64,000 nucleotides of DNA from Rhodothalassiaceae bacterium (GTDB lineage: Bacteria > Pseudomonadota > Alphaproteobacteria > Sphingomonadales > Rhodothalassiaceae): NCBI GenBank assembly GCA_026004935.1, contig BPKC01000001.1, positions 2,023,491 to 2,087,490 on the forward strand, given 5' to 3'. Shown here one piece after another: positions 6,299 through 39,633 of the stretch (its first letter is position 1; each line of letters opens with the position of its first letter). Under the pieces are notes generated by a model. That model had not been told where the DNA came from. It ran no database searches and was given only the letters and a program-made list of their open reading frames with translations. The position numbers and the translations under genes are program-made.

Positions 6299-7372
6299 CT
6301 TCGCGCGCGCCGCCGGCTCGACCGGCGGTTCCAGCTTCCCCTTCGTCATCCGCCGCGAAGGCGACGAATCCAGCCGCCATGCGCCGGGGTTGCTTCCCTT
6401 TCCGCTGGACCCGCCCATCGGGCGTGGTGACCGGGAGTGCGCCGCCGGCGGGTGCCCTTCCCCCATCGCGTCGTTCGCCGGCTCGACCGGCGAACCCGGC
6501 CGGCGGTGAACGCAGCTCCGAGGTCTGGGTTCGGCTTCGCCGCCCGCTGGACCCGCCGGTCAAGCCGGCGGGTGACGTGAGAAGGAGATGGACCCGCCGG
6601 TCAAGCCGGCGGGTGACGAGGGAATATTGTGCCGGCGGGTGACGAAGGGATGGGGCCGGCGGGTGACGCTCTCTCTTCCTCGTCATCCGCCGACTTGATC
6701 GGCGGATCCAGCGGGCGGCTGGGCCGATCAGGGGCACCGGGATTGTCTCCACCGCCGGTTGGGTTCGCCGGTCGAGCCGGCGAACGACGTATCGGTCATC
6801 AGTGGTCAGTCATCAGTGATCAGAATGGCCGGCGGCCTGCGGCGCTCCCTCTCTGCGTCATCCGCCGACTTGATCGGCGGATCCAGCGGGCGGCTGGGCC
6901 GATCAGGGGCACCGGGATTGTCTCCACCGCCGGCCGGGTTCGCCGGTCAAGCCGGCGAACGACGTATCGGTCATCAGTGGTCAGTCATCAGTGATCAGAA
7001 TGGCCGGCGGCCTGCGGCGCTCCCTCTCTGCGTCATCCGCCGACTTGATCGGCGGATCCAGCGGGCGGCTGGGCCGATCAGGGGCACCGGGATTGTCTCC
7101 ACCGTCGGCCGGGTTCGCCGGTCAAGCCGGCGAACGACGTATCGGTCATCAGTGGTCAGTCATCAGTGATCAGAATGGCCGGCGGCCTGCGGCGCTCCCT
7201 CTCTGCGTCATCCGCCGACTTGATCGGCGGATCCAGCGGGCGGCTGGGCCGATCAGGGGCACCGGGATTGTCTCCACCGTCGGCCGGGTTCGCCGGTCGA
7301 GCCGGCGAACGACGCGGGAAGGGGGCTTCAAGGCCGCCGGTCGAGCCGGCGCACGACGCGGGAAGGGTTGGG
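6299..7372. repeat. Intergenic palindromic repeat cluster 2
   Basis: Palindromes of all four arm types occur here in both orientations: CGCCGGCTCGACCGGCG, CCGCCGACTTGATCGGCGG, TTCGCCGG/CCGGCGAA and CCCGCCGG/CCGGCGGG. Most are flanked by CGTC or GACG. The second half is a regular 175-bp tandem array, listed separately. No credible gene lies between the histidine-rich protein and tRNA-Met. The last 110 bp before the tRNA are repeat-free and may hold its promoter. Confidence 0.85.
6670..7314. repeat. 175-bp tandem array, about 3.7 copies
   Basis: Unit boundaries (GACGTATCGG or GACGCGGGAA) fall at 6786, 6961, 7136 and 7311, exactly 175 bp apart, and a partial first copy begins near 6670. Each unit holds a CCGCCGACTTGATCGGCGG palindrome, a GC-rich linker, and a TTCGCCGG...CCGGCGAA palindrome; the junctions between successive units also carry a short AT-rich segment built from CATCAGTG / GATCAG steps. 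Copies differ by only a few substitutions (CGCCGGTTGG, CGCCGGCCGG, CGTCGGCCGG). This points to recent unequal crossing-over or slippage. Confidence 0.9.
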
Positions 7373-7485
7373 CATCCGCCCGTGCGCACCCTCCATCGCG
7401 ATGCGCCGGTGCGCTTGACGAGAACGCGGGCTCTCCTATATCAGGCTCCCGCGCCGCGCCGGGGGTTCGCACGGTCGGCGCGCAT

Positions 7486-7561
7486 GGCGGAGTAGCTCAG
7501 CTGGTAGAGCAGCGGAATCATAATCCGTGGGTCGGGGGTTCGAGTCCCTCCTCCGCTACCA
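7486..7561 (+). tRNA. tRNA-Met (CAT, elongator)
   Basis: A 76-nt cloverleaf with acceptor GGCGGAG / CTCCGCT (the first pair is G-U), D-arm AGCTCAG, anticodon arm GCGGA-ATCATAA-TCCGT with CAT at 7519-7521, T-arm GGGGGTTCGAGTCCCTC and encoded CCA. The anticodon arm lacks the three consecutive G-C pairs of initiator tRNA, so it is the elongator type. Confidence 0.9.
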
Positions 7562-7628
7562 GATCCCTCTCATGCCGCAGCAGGTCGAGACGGCCCGCCT
7601 TCGCGGCGGGCGGCAGCCCGCGCGGGGC

Positions 7629-8501
7629 TCACCGCCGGGTGATCGCGTCATGGAGCGCGAGCGTCCGGCGCGCCATGTCGACGTGGAGATTTTCGACGAG
7701 CCGGCCGTTGAGCACGGCCACCCCGCGCCCGGCGGCGAGCGCCTCCTCATAGGCCGCGATCACCGCCCGGGCCTCCTCCACCTCCGCCGCGGACGGCGCG
7801 AAGGCGGCGTTCGCCGCGGCGATCTGCTTCGGGTGGATCAGCGTCTTGCCGTCGAAGCCGAGCTCGCGCCCCTGCCGGCATTCGGCCGCAAGCCCCTCCT
7901 CGTCCGCGAGATCGAGGAAGACGCCGTCGAGGATCGCGCGCCCGGCCGCCCGCGCGGCCAGCATGCAGCGCTCCAGCGCATAGAGGAAGGGCGTGCGGCC
8001 GGGCACATGGCGGGCGTTGAGCTCCTTGGCGAGGTCCGAGGTGCCCATCACCAGCACGGCGAGCCGCGGGTGGGCCGCGATCTCCGGCGCCGCGAAGACG
8101 CCGCGGGGCGTTTCGATCATCGCCCACAGCGGGATGTCCGCCCCGCCGTGTCGCGCCGCAAGCGCCGCGAGCTCGTCGAGTTCGGCGGCGGACTCCACCT
8201 TCGGCAGCAGCAGCGCATCGGGGCCCGCCGCAACCGCCGCCGCCACGTCGTCGCGCCCCCAGGGGGTGTCCAGCCGGTTGACGCGGATCGCGATCTCGCG
8301 GTGGCCGAAGCCGCCGGCCGTCACCGCCTCCGCGACGCGCCGGCGCGCCTCCTCCTTGTCCTGCGGGGCGACGGCATCCTCGAGATCGAGGATGACGCCG
8401 TCGCAGTCCAGCGTCTTCGCCTTTTCCATCGCGCGGGTGTTGATGCCCGGCATGTAGAGCACGGAGCGGCGCGGGCGGATCGCGGGGGCGTGATCGGTCA
8501 T
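7629..8501 (-). CDS. HpcH/HpaI (CitE-like) CoA-ester lyase
   Basis: A 290-residue TIM-barrel protein of the citrate-lyase beta / malyl-CoA lyase family. The family signature opens the protein: RRSVLYMPGINTRAMEKAKTL, then DGVILDLEDAVAP with the acidic Mg ligands. It continues with the IRVNRLDTPWGRDD loop, LLPKVESAAEL, and the second acidic site in AMIETPRGV. The C-terminal FDGKTLIHPKQ helix is also conserved. Such enzymes split or hydrolyse (S)-malyl-CoA, beta-methylmalyl-CoA or citramalyl-CoA; the sequence alone does not choose among them. AAGGAAGG lies upstream of ATG 8501. The gene is separated from hslO by 135 bp, so it is probably a separate unit on the same strand. Confidence 0.87.
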   Translation of the reverse strand: MTDHAPAIRPRRSVLYMPGINTRAMEKAKTLDCDGVILDLEDAVAPQDKEEARRRVAEAVTAGGFGHREIAIRVNRLDTPWGRDDVAAAVAAGPDALLLPKVESAAELDELAALAARHGGADIPLWAMIETPRGVFAAPEIAAHPRLAVLVMGTSDLAKELNARHVPGRTPFLYALERCMLAARAAGRAILDGVFLDLADEEGLAAECRQGRELGFDGKTLIHPKQIAAANAAFAPSAAEVEEARAVIAAYEEALAAGRGVAVLNGRLVENLHVDMARRTLALHDAITRR

Positions 8502-33907: not shown

Positions 33908-34195
33908 ATGTCCATAGACCGCGGCACGGTGACGAAGATCGCGCAGCTTGCGCGCATCCGCCTCGACGAGGACGAGGCGGCCCGGCTCGAAGGGGAGCTC
34001 AAGCGGATTCTCGACTGGGTGGCGGCGCTCCAGGCCGTGGACACGGAGGGCGTGGAGCCGCTGTCCAGCGTCGTCGGCACGCGGCTGCGCTGGCGCGCGG
34101 ACGAGGTGACCGACGGCAATTGCCGCGAGGACATCCTCGCCAACGCGCCCGAGCGGGTCGACGGCTTCTTCGCCGTGCCCAAGGTGATCGAGTAG
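33908..34195 (+). CDS. gatC: Aspartyl/glutamyl-tRNA(Asn/Gln) amidotransferase subunit C
   Basis: A 95-residue GatC, the small stabilising subunit of the GatCAB amidotransferase that converts Glu-tRNA(Gln) or Asp-tRNA(Asn) to the amidated form. Typical start (VTKIAQLARIRLDEDE) and the conserved RADEV...ANAPERVDGFFAVPKV tail, which wraps around GatA. It precedes gatA by 9 bp. Confidence 0.95.
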   Translation: MSIDRGTVTKIAQLARIRLDEDEAARLEGELKRILDWVAALQAVDTEGVEPLSSVVGTRLRWRADEVTDGNCREDILANAPERVDGFFAVPKVIE

Positions 34196-34204
34196 GACGC
34201 GGCG

Positions 34205-35692
34205 ATGACGGATCTGACGGAACTCGGCGTCGTCGAAGGCCGCGATCTTCTGCGCCGGCGCGAGATTTCGGCGCGGGAATGGACGGCGGCGCTCTTGGAC
34301 GAGATCGCGGCCGCCGCCCCGCTCAACGCCTTCCTTGCGGTCGATGCGGAGCATGCGCTCCGGATGGCGGATGCCGCCGATGCCGCGCTCGCGCGCGGCG
34401 ACGACCGGCTGCTCACCGGCGTGCCGATCGCGGTCAAGGACCTCTTCTGCACGAAGGGCCTGCGCACCACGGCCGGCTCGCGCATCCTCGAGAACTTCGT
34501 GCCGACCTATGAGAGCACGGTCACCGCCAATCTCTGGGCGGCGGGCGCGGTGATGCTGGGCAAGACCAACATGGACGAGTTCGCGATGGGCTCGTCCAAC
34601 GAAAACAGCGCCTTCGGCCCCGTGCGTGGGCCCTGGCGCGACCGCGAGGGCCGGCCGCTCGTGCCCGGCGGTTCCTCGGGCGGCTCGGCGGCGGCGGTGG
34701 CGGCGCGCATCGCCCCGGCCGCGACCGCCAGCGACACCGGCGGCTCGATCCGCCAGCCGGCGGCCTTCACCGGCACCGTCGGCATCAAGCCGACCTACGG
34801 GCGCTGCTCGCGCTGGGGGATGGTCGCCTTCGCCTCCTCGCTGGACCAGGCGGGGCCCATCGCGCGCTCGGTCGCCGATGCGGCGCTCGTGTTGCAGGCG
34901 ATGGCGGGCTTTGATGAGAGGGATTCGACCAGCGCGGAGGTGCCGGTGCCGGATCTGCTGGCGGCGCTGGAGCGCGGGGTCAAGGGGCTCGTCGTCGGCG
35001 TGCCGCGGGAATACCGCGCCGACGACATGCCGGCGGCGATCACCGCGATGTGGGAGGCGGGGATCGCCTGGCTGAAGGAGGCGGGCGCCGAGATCCGCGA
35101 GGTGAGCCTGCCGCATACGCAGGTGGCGCTGCCCACCTACTACATCATCGCCCCCGCCGAGGCGTCCTCCAATCTCGCGCGCTATGACGGCGTGCGCTAC
35201 GGCCTGCGCGTGATGCCGCACGAGGACGCCTCGCTCACCGGGATGTACGAGGCGACCCGCGGCGCCGGCTTCGGCGCGGAGGTCAAGCGGCGCGTGATGA
35301 TCGGCACCTATGTGCTCTCGGCGGGCTATTATGACGCCTATTATCTGAAGGCCCAGAAGGTGCGGGCGCTGATCAGGGCGGATTTCGACGCTGCCTTCCG
35401 GGAGGTCGACCTGCTGCTCACCCCGACGGCGCCGTCGGCGGCCTTCCCGCTGGGCGGGCGGCCCGATCCGATCGCGATGTATTACAACGACGTCTTCACC
35501 GTGCCGGCCTCGCTGGCGGGGCTGCCGGCGATCTCGGTGCCGGCGGGCACCGACGAGGCGGGCCTGCCGCTGGGCCTTCAGCTCATCGCCCGGGCCTTCG
35601 ACGAGGAAACCCTGGTGGCGGGCGCCCGCGTCATCGAACGCGCGGCCGCCTTCTCCGCCCGCCCCGAGCCCTGGTGGAAGCGGGAGGGCTGA
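34205..35692 (+). CDS. gatA: Glutamyl-tRNA(Gln) amidotransferase subunit A
   Basis: A 495-residue amidase-signature enzyme that releases ammonia from glutamine for tRNA amidation. The Ser-cisSer-Lys triad is complete: K78 in [10 protein letters not shown], the cis-Ser in [10 protein letters not shown] (157/158) and the nucleophile S181 in [11 protein letters not shown]. Length and motif order match canonical GatA. gatB normally follows directly, but here an AT-rich island of about 2.2 kb intervenes. Confidence 0.96.
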
Positions 35693-35740
35693 CCCTCTCA
35701 CGCCCTTGTTCTCAGATTTTCCTTGTCCGCTTAAACTATA

Positions 35741-35767
35741 GTTGGCGGCACCAACGCCTCCTTTTTT
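35741..35767 (+). terminator. Possible weak terminator after gatA
   Basis: GTTGG-CGGCA-CCAAC (35741-35755) is a 5-bp hairpin followed by GCCTCC and a six-T run at 35762-35767. It could end gatCA transcription before the inserted island. The stem is short and separated from the T run, so this is tentative. Confidence 0.3.
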
Positions 35768-35796
35768 GTGGGACTTGCCGCAAAGATGTAATGAAA

Positions 35797-37815
35797 TTAA
35801 TCGTCGGTGAAAAAGCTTTTTCCAGAAATCCCCACTCTGTCAAAAAAGGCTTGGTTCCGTGCGTGCGCATCCTTCAGCAACGAATCCCATCCTCGAAGCT
35901 CGATAAATCCTTGAAAGCCATCTCTCGGGTAATACACTCTTCCCTGCCCGTCTGCAGTCCTCTGCCATGTTGCAGTCCACTCGTCCATCTTTCCAATGAT
36001 GTCGGCAACAACATAGCAATAAAAAATACTACTTTTCGTAATCGCAATCGGCCTTCCACGAATATCCTTCAGTTTCCCATTTTGCATTTTCGTAATATAC
36101 TTATGTATTTGAAATTGCGGATTTTCTCCATCAGCATATTCCTCTCTCCCAGGTCTTTTAAATTCCACGAGCAATATCTTCGCATCATCAGCGGAGTGCC
36201 TAAGGCTATGCACATAATCAAATATCAAAATATCCGGCCGCGCCTTGTCTCCGCCTTCGGCCATTACTTTTTCCAACTCGATGTCCGAACTGAAATATTC
36301 AGCAAATGCCAATCTTTCATCGACAATCCAAAGGTCATGTGATGCAGGACTCAGTTCAGTGTAGTCCACCCCCGGCCCGGAAGCGATCTTCATCGGGCAA
36401 ATAATGGAGTGTAATGTTTTTTCAACATGATATGACCAATCACCAGACGTTTGCACAACCTTCTGGATTAATATCCGCAATAGATCCAGAATTACTTTTC
36501 TCCTAACAACGTACTCAGCTAAACTCCTCTGCTCTTCGGATTGAATACTCTCTTTCGCCCGAGCCAGTGCCAATTCAAAATCTTTAAAATTAAAAGCACC
36601 GCGTTTTAAACAATCTAGAACTTCTTTAATTTCTTCAAATTGTCTTTTATTCCTCCGGTATCTCTCTCTTGAAAGGTGTCCGTAAATCGCGTCTTCGTCA
36701 AGCTCACCCGTTGGTATTTTGTTTCTTAACTCATCTGGATGTGCGAAAGCGACCGATGGATAGGTCTCTGTAATATTTTTAATTATTTTATTTTGTTTAT
36801 TTTTTAACATTTCCAATGGTTCCGCAAGAAATTTCGCAATCTCCTGCATACAATACTCATTAATAATATGTTCGATAACTCTTTCTCCAAATAAAAAAGC
36901 TGTTCGCTCTTGATTTACATTTTGATCCATATACGCTCCAGTCAATATTGCATGAAACACCCTATCACTATTTTGACCAAACACCTTCAATCCCAATTTC
37001 GCGTCAATACAATGCGAGTGCACAGTCCTATCGTGAGCCACAAAATGCACGAAATTTGACCCCTTAAGATCAGAACTGGCTATCCTATCACATTCCATGA
37101 GCGTCAATTCTAAAATACCATATTTATCGGTGGTTATCTTAATATTTCTTTCGTCACGCTTTATTATGTTGTTGATCTCGCTTGGATATTCTCGCTCATC
37201 GCCGTTGACATTTACAATTATTTTCGGCGAACGACCGCTGATAAAAGTAGGTAGGAAATGTGAAGTGATATGTTGAGATATATATTCTTTTCGACCTGGA
37301 AATTTTTCTCGATATTTTGGGTGCCGAAGACCATAAAATTGGATTTTAAACCCAGTTTCTGACGCGCTTGGCTGCTCTATTACTTTTTCATCTTTTATCT
37401 GATCCATTTGATCTAGTACAAATCGAAATTTTCTGAGCTTAAGTGAACCGTCCTTTTGAAAAACCGATTCGATCTCTATATTTTCAAAGCAGTCTAGCCA
37501 CAATAAACGTCCAATTCCTTTTCCGCCAATTGCAATCTTATTGTCGGTATCTGTCGTCAGAAATGCTTCCCAATTTTTTTCGTTTAGACCAATTCCATTA
37601 TCGGTAACTGTCGCGGACACGCTATCTTTTCTTCTCTTTGTCGATATTTCTACATTGATACGTCCTTTCTCAGACACCTCGTCGCCAAATTTTTCTTGAG
37701 TGGAGTGAATCGCATTGCTAATAGCTTCAAATAAAGGTTGCAATGCGCCTGCAACATTTGTTGGCTTTGGGAGTCGTTCGATTCGCTTTACGATATTTGA
37801 TCGCAGTGCAGTCAT
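35797..37815 (-). CDS. GHKL ATPase with C-terminal PD-(D/E)XK-like nuclease motif (candidate defence protein)
   Basis: A 672-residue protein read against the gat genes. The N-terminal GHKL (Hsp90/MutL-type) ATPase has the N box LFEAISNAIHS (E30, N34), DNGIG at 72-76 and the glycine-rich GGKGIGR at about 97-103. The middle (about 330-450) is helical and charged. The C-terminus shows the spacing of a PD-(D/E)XK nuclease: D528 in ARPDILIF, E551-x-K553 in LLVEFKRP, and Q567/Q569 in NPQFQIHKYI. The VEFKRP block resembles Shedu-type (DUF4263-like) nucleases. The gene is strikingly AT-rich compared with its 70%-GC surroundings, uses different codons, and has no transposase nearby. AAAGGAG lies upstream of ATG 37815. 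Stand-alone anti-phage function is inference. Confidence 0.82.
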   Translation of the reverse strand: MTALRSNIVKRIERLPKPTNVAGALQPLFEAISNAIHSTQEKFGDEVSEKGRINVEISTKRRKDSVSATVTDNGIGLNEKNWEAFLTTDTDNKIAIGGKGIGRLLWLDCFENIEIESVFQKDGSLKLRKFRFVLDQMDQIKDEKVIEQPSASETGFKIQFYGLRHPKYREKFPGRKEYISQHITSHFLPTFISGRSPKIIVNVNGDEREYPSEINNIIKRDERNIKITTDKYGILELTLMECDRIASSDLKGSNFVHFVAHDRTVHSHCIDAKLGLKVFGQNSDRVFHAILTGAYMDQNVNQERTAFLFGERVIEHIINEYCMQEIAKFLAEPLEMLKNKQNKIIKNITETYPSVAFAHPDELRNKIPTGELDEDAIYGHLSRERYRRNKRQFEEIKEVLDCLKRGAFNFKDFELALARAKESIQSEEQRSLAEYVVRRKVILDLLRILIQKVVQTSGDWSYHVEKTLHSIICPMKIASGPGVDYTELSPASHDLWIVDERLAFAEYFSSDIELEKVMAEGGDKARPDILIFDYVHSLRHSADDAKILLVEFKRPGREEYADGENPQFQIHKYITKMQNGKLKDIRGRPIAITKSSIFYCYVVADIIGKMDEWTATWQRTADGQGRVYYPRDGFQGFIELRGWDSLLKDAHARNQAFFDRVGISGKSFFTDD

Positions 37816-38145
37816 CGCACCACGCTCTCCTTTGTTGGCCCCTTAATAGCAATACCATAACTTTTTTGCGACCGCGGCTGCAACCCTCACCAGGGATACG
37901 AGAAGGTCGGCCCGTGCCATCGATCACCCTCTACCTCGTTGGCTGGCAGGCTTTATCCGCCCTTCGCCCATGCGGACATGAGATCATCTTGGCATGCTTT
38001 GCGGCCTCCCGCAACTGGCCGCCTTGCGGTGTCGTGGCGGGCGGGCTATGGAACGGCGGCCGCATCGGGAGCCGCGTTGGCGCTTGCGTTCTGCGGGCGG
38101 ATGGTGTGGTCGTGTTGCCGTCAGCGGATCGGAGATCGGTCGGCC
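37816..38145. other. 330-bp spacer between the island gene and gatB
   Basis: The left 70 bp are AT-rich like the island and hold its likely promoter; from about 37890 rightwards the GC content returns to host level. The right part probably contains the promoter or leader of gatB, but no box is clear. In-frame codons upstream of gatB ATG 38146 are open but unlike GatB. Confidence 0.5.
37854..37883 (-). promoter_or_regulatory. Putative sigma-70 promoter of the GHKL-nuclease gene
   Basis: On the minus strand TTGCAG (37878-37883) and TATGGT (37854-37859) are separated by 18 bp, and the -10 box lies 38 bp upstream of the ATG. The match is reasonable for a housekeeping promoter and sits in the AT-rich edge of the island. 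Confidence 0.35.
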
Positions 38146-39633
38146 ATGGGTGCATACGTGATCGAAGGGGCGAGCGGGCCGTGGGAGATCGTCGTGGGCA
38201 TGGAGGTGCATGCCCAGGTGATCTCGCGCGCCAAGCTGTTCTCGGGGGCGGCCACCGACTTCGGCGCCGAGCCGAACACCCAGGTCAGCCTCGTGGATGC
38301 GGCGATGCCGGGCATGCTGCCGGTCGTCAACCGCGCATGCATCTTCCAGGCGGTGCGCACGGGGCTGGCGCTCAACGCGCGGATCAACAAGTGGTCGCGC
38401 TTCGACCGCAAGAACTATTTCTACCCGGATCTGCCCGCCGGCTATCAGATCAGCCAGTACAAACATCCCATCGTCGGCGAGGGCTTCGTCGAGATCACGC
38501 TTGCCGACGGCACGACGAAGAGGATCGGCATCGAGCGCCTGCACCTGGAGCAGGACGCGGGCAAGATGCTGCACGACCAGCATCCCCGCTGGTCGCTCGT
38601 CGATCTCAACCGCGCGGGCGTCGCGCTGATGGAGATCGTCTCCAGGCCCGACATCCGCTCGCCCGAGGAGGCCGGCGCCTATCTGCGCAAGCTGCGCACG
38701 CTGCTGCGCTACATCGGCTCCTGCGACGGCAACATGGAGCAGGGCTCGATGCGCGCCGACATCAACGTCTCGGTCCGCCGCCCGGGCGGGCCCTTCGGCA
38801 CCCGCTGCGAGATCAAGAACGTCAATTCCGTGCGCTTCGTGATGGCGGCGATCGAATACGAGGCGCGCCGGCAGGTGGAGATCCTGGAGGCCGGCGGCGC
38901 GATCGAGCAGGAAACGCGGCTCTTCGACCCGAACCGGATGGAGACGCGCTCCATGCGCTCGAAGGAGGAGGCGCATGACTACCGCTATTTCCCGGATCCG
39001 GACCTGCTGCCGCTGGAGCTCGACGACGCCTTCATCGAAGAGGCGCGCGCGAGCCTGCCCGAGATGCCGGACGCCAAGCAGCACCGCTACCAGGAGGAGT
39101 GGGGGCTGACGGCCTACAACGCCGCCACCATCGTCACCGAGCGCGAGGCGGCCGAGTATTTCGAGGCGGTGGTGGCGGCTCTTGCGAAGGCCACCGGCAG
39201 GCCGGAGGCGGAAGTCGCCAACCGGGCGGCAAACTGGGTGCTCGCCGATCTCTTCGGGCATCTGAACAAGGCCGGGCTTGCGATCACGGAAAGCCCCGTC
39301 AGCGCCGCACAGGGGGCGGAGCTGCTGGCGCTGGTCGACAAGGGCGCGATCTCGGGCCGGGTCGCCAAGGAAGTGTTCGAGGAGATGTTCGCCTCAGGCC
39401 GCGGCGCGGCCGAGATCGTCGAGGAGAAGGGGCTCACCCAGGTTTCCGACGAGGCGGCGCTCATCCCCGTCGTCGAGAAGGTGCTGGCCGACAATCCGGC
39501 GCAGGTCGAGCAGTATCGCGGCGGCAAGACGAAGGTGATCGGGTTCTTCGTCGGCCAGGTGATGAAGGCGACTCGCGGGCAGGCGAACCCCGCGGTCGTC
39601 AACCGCCTGCTCAAGGAGCGGCTCGACGCCTGA
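38146..39633 (+). CDS. gatB: Aspartyl/glutamyl-tRNA amidotransferase subunit B
   Basis: A 495-residue GatB, the subunit that binds and activates the misacylated tRNA with ATP. The start [15 protein letters not shown], metal/tunnel region ([15 protein letters not shown]), [17 protein letters not shown], and [12 protein letters not shown] are classical. The YqeY-like tail (last 150 residues) ends [26 protein letters not shown] 38146 is chosen by alignment to this start. Separated from gatA by an inserted gene of foreign composition, it must have its own promoter or be read through the island. Confidence 0.96.

Follow-up and report, generated by a model that had tools for sequence, protein, structure and literature searches.

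A probable anti-phage gene of the paraMORC3/VcSduA kind inserted between gatA and gatB in a genome of the family Rhodothalassiaceae

Organization of the gatA–gatB locus

The window, a stretch of 64,000 nucleotides of contig BPKC01000001.1 (Rhodothalassiaceae bacterium, assembly GCA_026004935.1), contains the genes of the host gat operon on the plus strand: gatC (33908–34195; a 95-aa ORF named from the original prediction and from its position), gatA (34205–35692) and gatB (38146–39633). The 495-aa ORF gatA, which forms the left flank, has 77% identity to its counterpart in the same-genus genome G001, where the junction is intact; gatB, the right flank, has 81% identity to the same-genus gatB and was found in 30 of the 31 genomes searched. 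Between the gatA stop codon (35692) and the gatB ATG (38146) lies an insert of 2,453 bp (35693–38145), which stands in place of a spacer of about 5 bp. The two genes are separated by 5 bp in G001 (locus L065) and by an alignment gap of 5–36 nt in most relatives having both in range, so the insert is taken to be the whole of 35693–38145. The normal contiguity of gatA and gatB, on which the original prediction relied, thus holds, as does the AT-richness of the inserted DNA, but its size had been put at about 2.2 kb and is 2,453 bp when the 330-bp leader is included.

The sole gene of the insert is a minus-strand ORF of 672 codons (35797–37815), identified from the ORF call, conservation and a fold model as paraMORC3/VcSduA-like. 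GC content across the island is 0.36–0.44 against about 0.70 before the dip, while 2-kb windows outside the island have a mean of 0.713 (sd 0.020, minimum 0.678). Within the gene, GC content is 0.402 and GC3 is 0.37, compared with a GC3 of 0.92 in gatA and gatB; both the single minus-strand gene and its foreign composition had been predicted correctly.

The leader between the gene and gatB (37816–38145, 330 bp) rises in GC towards gatB. Comparison with 39 relatives gave no good match to it, the one match being of 67 bases at 76% in the genome G019, and it would have to contain or let through any gatB promoter. Upstream of 37815, no minus-strand promoter-like site was found, the regional count being that expected by chance; the promoter that had been proposed for the gene was therefore not recovered. 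No clear flanking repeat was found around the insert, and no tRNA, integrase or transposase gene lies beside it, in agreement with the predicted lack of a mobility gene. Matches of 10 bp, for example GTGGCGGGCG at 35615 and 38034, were considered as a target-site duplication, but none is claimed because such matches are at chance level for GC-rich flanks (about 0.26 expected, an estimate). A 28-bp match within the same genome to the region of residue D528 was also discarded, as it sits in an unrelated GC-rich locus.

No defence gene neighbours the 672-aa gene at this site. The gatA–gatB junction is split in other species as well, in one relative by an acyltransferase-like ORF and a second ORF (L062:697–2916) and at another locus by a flavodoxin/NAD(P)H-oxidoreductase-like ORF (L064:1900–2477), both read from translations. 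These interrupting genes are unrelated to the one in the window; the gat operon thus withstands insertions here, but nothing marks the junction as an obvious hotspot for defence genes.

ATPase module and linker of the encoded protein

The structure of the 672-aa protein was modelled with AlphaFold2 from an alignment of the window protein and 39 homologues from viral contigs (mean pLDDT 83.7). Residues 3–332 (36820–37809, minus strand, as are all the coding features below) aligned by VIA-align with MORC2, MORC3, MORC4, Hsp90 and TopoVI-B at Z of about 18–19, the matches to MORC2/3/4 spanning 277–287 residues; MutL and SMCHD1 are also in the Foldseek list for the model. The eukaryotic proteins MORC2/3/4, which share this GHKL+S5 module, are chromatin proteins without a nuclease domain.

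All three GHKL boxes of the original prediction are present, and their catalytic positions are invariant in the homologue alignments of 21 and 40 sequences: E30 and N34 of motif I (37714–37728), D72, G74 and G76 of motif II, D72-N-G-I-G76 (37588–37602), and G100, G102 and R103 of motif III, G97-GKGIG-R103 (37507–37527). Sequence searches gave little besides. The Pfam model HATPase_c matched the window protein with an E-value of 1.6e-5, just short of the cut-off; the NCBIfam search gave GHKL matches below the cut-off and nothing else; the PDB sequence search, with the protein and with the family profile A1, gave histidine-kinase and Mlh1 scraps or chance matches only; and the search of viral predicted structures yielded GHKL proteins alone, for example Hsp90, topoisomerases and phage RIIA. 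On the model, residues 3–332 are a MORC/MutL/TopoVI-like GHKL ATPase module with an S5/transducer domain. They are followed by a predicted helical linker or dimer arm, residues 333–455 (36451–36819), with long helices at 374–405 and 410–455.

C-terminal nuclease-type domain

The C-terminal residues 456–672 (35800–36450) carry the residues E465 (36421–36423), D528 (36232–36234) and E551 and K553 of the motif E551-F-K553 (36157–36165), which are invariant in both homologue alignments (21 and 40 sequences). E465, which the original prediction had missed, corresponds to the first glutamate of the published E-D-ExK pattern; the predicted D528 and E551-x-K553 stand, and of the two glutamines proposed, Q569 is conserved in at least 90% of homologues while Q567 is absent from the list of conserved positions.

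Folded alone, the domain gave a pLDDT of 67, which is moderate and weaker than in the full chain. PD-(D/E)XK enzymes prevail among the leading VIA matches of this model, which are weak and include Bacillus cereus Shedu 8ti9 in first place, N.BspD6I and E. coli SduA; FokI and McrBC are further weak fold matches. The Shedu structures score Z of 4.2 (8ti9), 3.9 (8ti8) and 3.7 (8ps5 and 8ps4), tied with other PD-(D/E)XK enzymes. Foldseek gave no match to the domain at E < 0.001, and none of the Pfam nuclease models and none of the PADLOC-DB 2.0.0 models matches the window protein. The profile PF14082 (SduA_C/DUF4263) gave no match to it at E-values up to 1 and weakly matches one of 21 full-length and two of 40 domain sequences of homologues (best E-value 6e-4). 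Alignment with canonical Shedu by hhalign covered the ExK...Q stretch alone, at 15% probability, and a search of the loci with the nuclease profile A3 found no canonical SduA. A PD-(D/E)XK fold of residues 456–672 is likely, and as the Z values are low, this assignment is based mainly on the motif pattern.

Distribution of homologues and lateral transfer

Homologues were found in six of 100 genomes of relatives and in seven of 385 genomes of the class, both tallies counting the genome of the window itself. No homologue was found in the same-genus genome (89% complete) or in the genomes of the same family, and a scan of genome contigs gave one partial relative. The closest copies found are from a viral contig (L070, 61% identity) and from a genome (L014, 59%). 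Gammaproteobacterial homologues have about 27–29% identity to the window protein, and E. coli genomes yielded nothing related at the DNA level to the Salinivibrio copy.

Homologues are also present at 49 IMG/VR loci and on 54 plasmid records, of which 28 are typed as conjugative and 48 match 80% or more of the query at a single location. Octopine-type Ti plasmids carry a homologue with 56% identity. Split or truncated homologues occur at L015/L020, L006/L008 and L011.

In the 5.7-kb viral contig L070 (957–5513), the 61% copy lies directly after phage capsid genes; its GC content is 0.51 and that of the surrounding DNA 0.66, and it too looks like the insertion of a single gene. In phage vB_RanS_PJN03 (L010:2485–4509), the homologue adjoins an integrase gene and is annotated, apparently by misnaming, as N-acetylmuramoyl-L-alanine amidase. 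The GC content of a homologue frequently falls below that of the DNA beside it (L126, L012, L058, L060, L073, L074 and L127–L129), with pairs of values such as 0.33 and 0.47 or 0.48 and 0.62, which suggests repeated recent transfer.

The sporadic occurrence of homologues, their absence from the same-genus and same-family genomes searched and the base composition show that the 672-aa gene was laterally acquired. Vertical inheritance as a housekeeping gene, which had been named as the outcome contrary to the prediction, is ruled out, because the gatA–gatB site is empty in relatives.

Genomic surroundings of homologues

Neighbouring genes differ in nearly every homologue locus. As the original prediction had suggested examining, the location of homologues is informative: on plasmids and viral contigs, they often stand beside genes of restriction-modification (RM), CBASS, SIR2, Abi and toxin–antitoxin systems. 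Homologues were found near type I RM genes (L052), near a CBASS-like operon (L056), next to a restriction endonuclease (L058), next to SIR2 and RM genes (L059), next to an Abi gene (L012) and, in a Ti plasmid, near TIR and ABC-3C genes (L009). In a plasmid of Vibrio fluvialis (L051:6625–10019), where a type I RM operon ends, an annotated Shedu immune nuclease gene (6625–8004) overlaps by 4 bp the start of a paraMORC3-like gene (8001); the two Shedu-like nucleases are possibly translationally coupled. The genome G086 (L124:4988–11816) contains a homologue with 51% identity to the window protein and a canonical SduA (PF14082, E-value 9.7e-34) in one island, together with resolvase, PIN, HEPN, RES and integrase genes. 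A DUF3800 gene lies downstream of the homologue at each of L055, L056 and L057, and the one at L056 overlaps the homologue's end.

By strict annotation, defence genes were found at five of 11 plasmid sites and in none of 11 stretches taken from distant parts of those plasmids, and by lenient annotation at eight and two, in a small sample that was scored by eye and has no control stretch for two plasmids of plant-tumour strains (one of them octopine-type Ti) and a clinical Vibrio plasmid.

Comparison with known systems and class assignment

Whether the family had been described was left open by the original prediction, and the answer is that it had. Proteins designated paraMORC3 have an N-terminal GHKL+S5 module and a C-terminal restriction-endonuclease-fold domain with E-D-ExK, are partly standalone, and are spread widely but sporadically among proteobacteria and bacteroidetes, the standalone forms having no conserved neighbours (Iyer, Abhiman and Aravind 2008, PMC2292703). 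The paraMORCs are said there to lack the MORC-specific sequence motif by which the MORC family is united, and distinct functions, including mismatch repair, are suggested for standalone paraMORC3 (PMC2292703). VcSduA of the Vibrio cholerae island VSP-II, which combines GHKL and PD-(D/E)xK domains, protects against Drexlerviridae and phage X29 at all MOIs, and the substitutions E27A (ATPase) and K557A (nuclease) each abolish defence (PMC12137116, 2025). The same article places VcSduA in type I-D Shedu and connects it with paraMORC3 (PMC12137116).

The window protein shares with the published description of paraMORC3 the N-terminal GHKL+S5 module with intact motifs, the C-terminal E-D-ExK, the standalone gene and the patchy spread; no difference from that description was found, and the location between gatA and gatB is new. 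With VcSduA it shares the joining of a GHKL domain to a nuclease domain, here of likely PD-(D/E)xK type, in one chain, a likeness drawn from the description and from residue numbering: gammaproteobacterial homologues have VcSduA-equivalent residues at E27 and at K556 or K558, and the equivalents of the ATPase glutamate and nuclease lysine in the window protein, E30 and K553, are both present. VcSduA adjoins GrwAB, whereas the window gene stands alone. Canonical SduA of Shedu (B. cereus 8ti8/8ti9 and E. coli 8ps4/8ps5) has the same E...D...ExK...Q order and the weak fold likeness given above, but its N-terminal part is different and lacks GHKL, and its PF14082 profile misses the window protein. 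The resemblance to Shedu proposed originally thus persists in motif order and, weakly, in fold, and fails at the level of the profile.

The protein is therefore filed here as paraMORC3, probably working like VcSduA, and not as Shedu in the PF14082 sense, as it has the GHKL+S5 module, the E-D-ExK motif and the sporadic, standalone occurrence of paraMORC3 and falls outside the PF14082 profile. The combination of GHKL and nuclease in one chain is an architecture already described in paraMORC3 and VcSduA and is not new. A further idea, speculative and rather doubtful, is that the paraMORC3 nuclease forms a defence family distinct from Shedu and senses in an ATP-gated manner of its own, the gene moving as a one-gene cassette without a mobility gene and landing inside housekeeping operons.

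Proposed function

The gene, gained by lateral transfer, is probably a stand-alone anti-phage gene of the paraMORC3/VcSduA kind, in which an ATP-gated clamp would license a nuclease. This reading draws on the invariant ATPase and nuclease residues, the fold matches of residues 3–332, the weak PD-(D/E)XK matches of the nuclease domain, the published definition of paraMORC3, the empty sites in relatives, the spread of homologues on mobile elements, their defence neighbours and the VcSduA phenotype; it agrees with the predicted cargo-only immune gene whose ATPase controls its nuclease. The points counted against it are the lack of a PF14082 or PADLOC match, the moderate nuclease model, and the failure to find a promoter or a defence neighbour at this site. 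By homology, two chains would pair through GHKL domains with bound ATP, and their S5 and helical parts would shut round DNA like a clamp. Once shut, the clamp would license the C-terminal nuclease, which would then cut the DNA of the invader. Cutting would act on the invader directly, without killing the host, and candidate triggers are a DNA end, DNA topology, a replication intermediate or a phage protein.

With the same biochemistry, the gene might act mainly between mobile elements, excluding rival plasmids or superinfecting phages instead of guarding the cell itself. The 54 plasmid records, 28 of them conjugative, and the 49 viral contigs would fit such a role, as would the phage copy adjoining an integrase and the closest copy behind capsid genes; it is nevertheless unlikely here, given that the window copy lies in the chromosome, where no element surrounds it, and that VcSduA acts against phages (PMC12137116). 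That the protein is a repair or recombination enzyme of the MutL kind, with no part in defence, is very unlikely: the gene is missing from most relatives, was laterally acquired and has homologues often in defence surroundings, and VcSduA has an anti-phage phenotype (PMC12137116), against which stand the lack of defence neighbours at the gatA–gatB site, MutL among the fold matches and the mismatch repair allowed for standalone paraMORC3 by the authors of 2008 (PMC2292703). Finally, an intact but unexpressed passenger on its way to loss is extremely improbable, since the full-length frame is open and every invariant catalytic residue is kept, even though no promoter was found, the insertion is antisense inside an operon and homologues elsewhere are split or truncated.

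Read as a stand-alone anti-phage gene, the 672-aa gene adds to the known range of the VcSduA/paraMORC3 type a lineage of alphaproteobacteria where six of the 100 genomes searched, that of the window among them, carry a homologue. Members of the family occur widely on plasmids of rhizobia, on Ti plasmids and in viral contigs, while common defence databases miss the window protein. Here, a probable stand-alone defence gene splits the gat operon, and searches based on islands would pass over a site of this type. A family profile such as A1, or A3 for the nuclease, would let annotators find further members.
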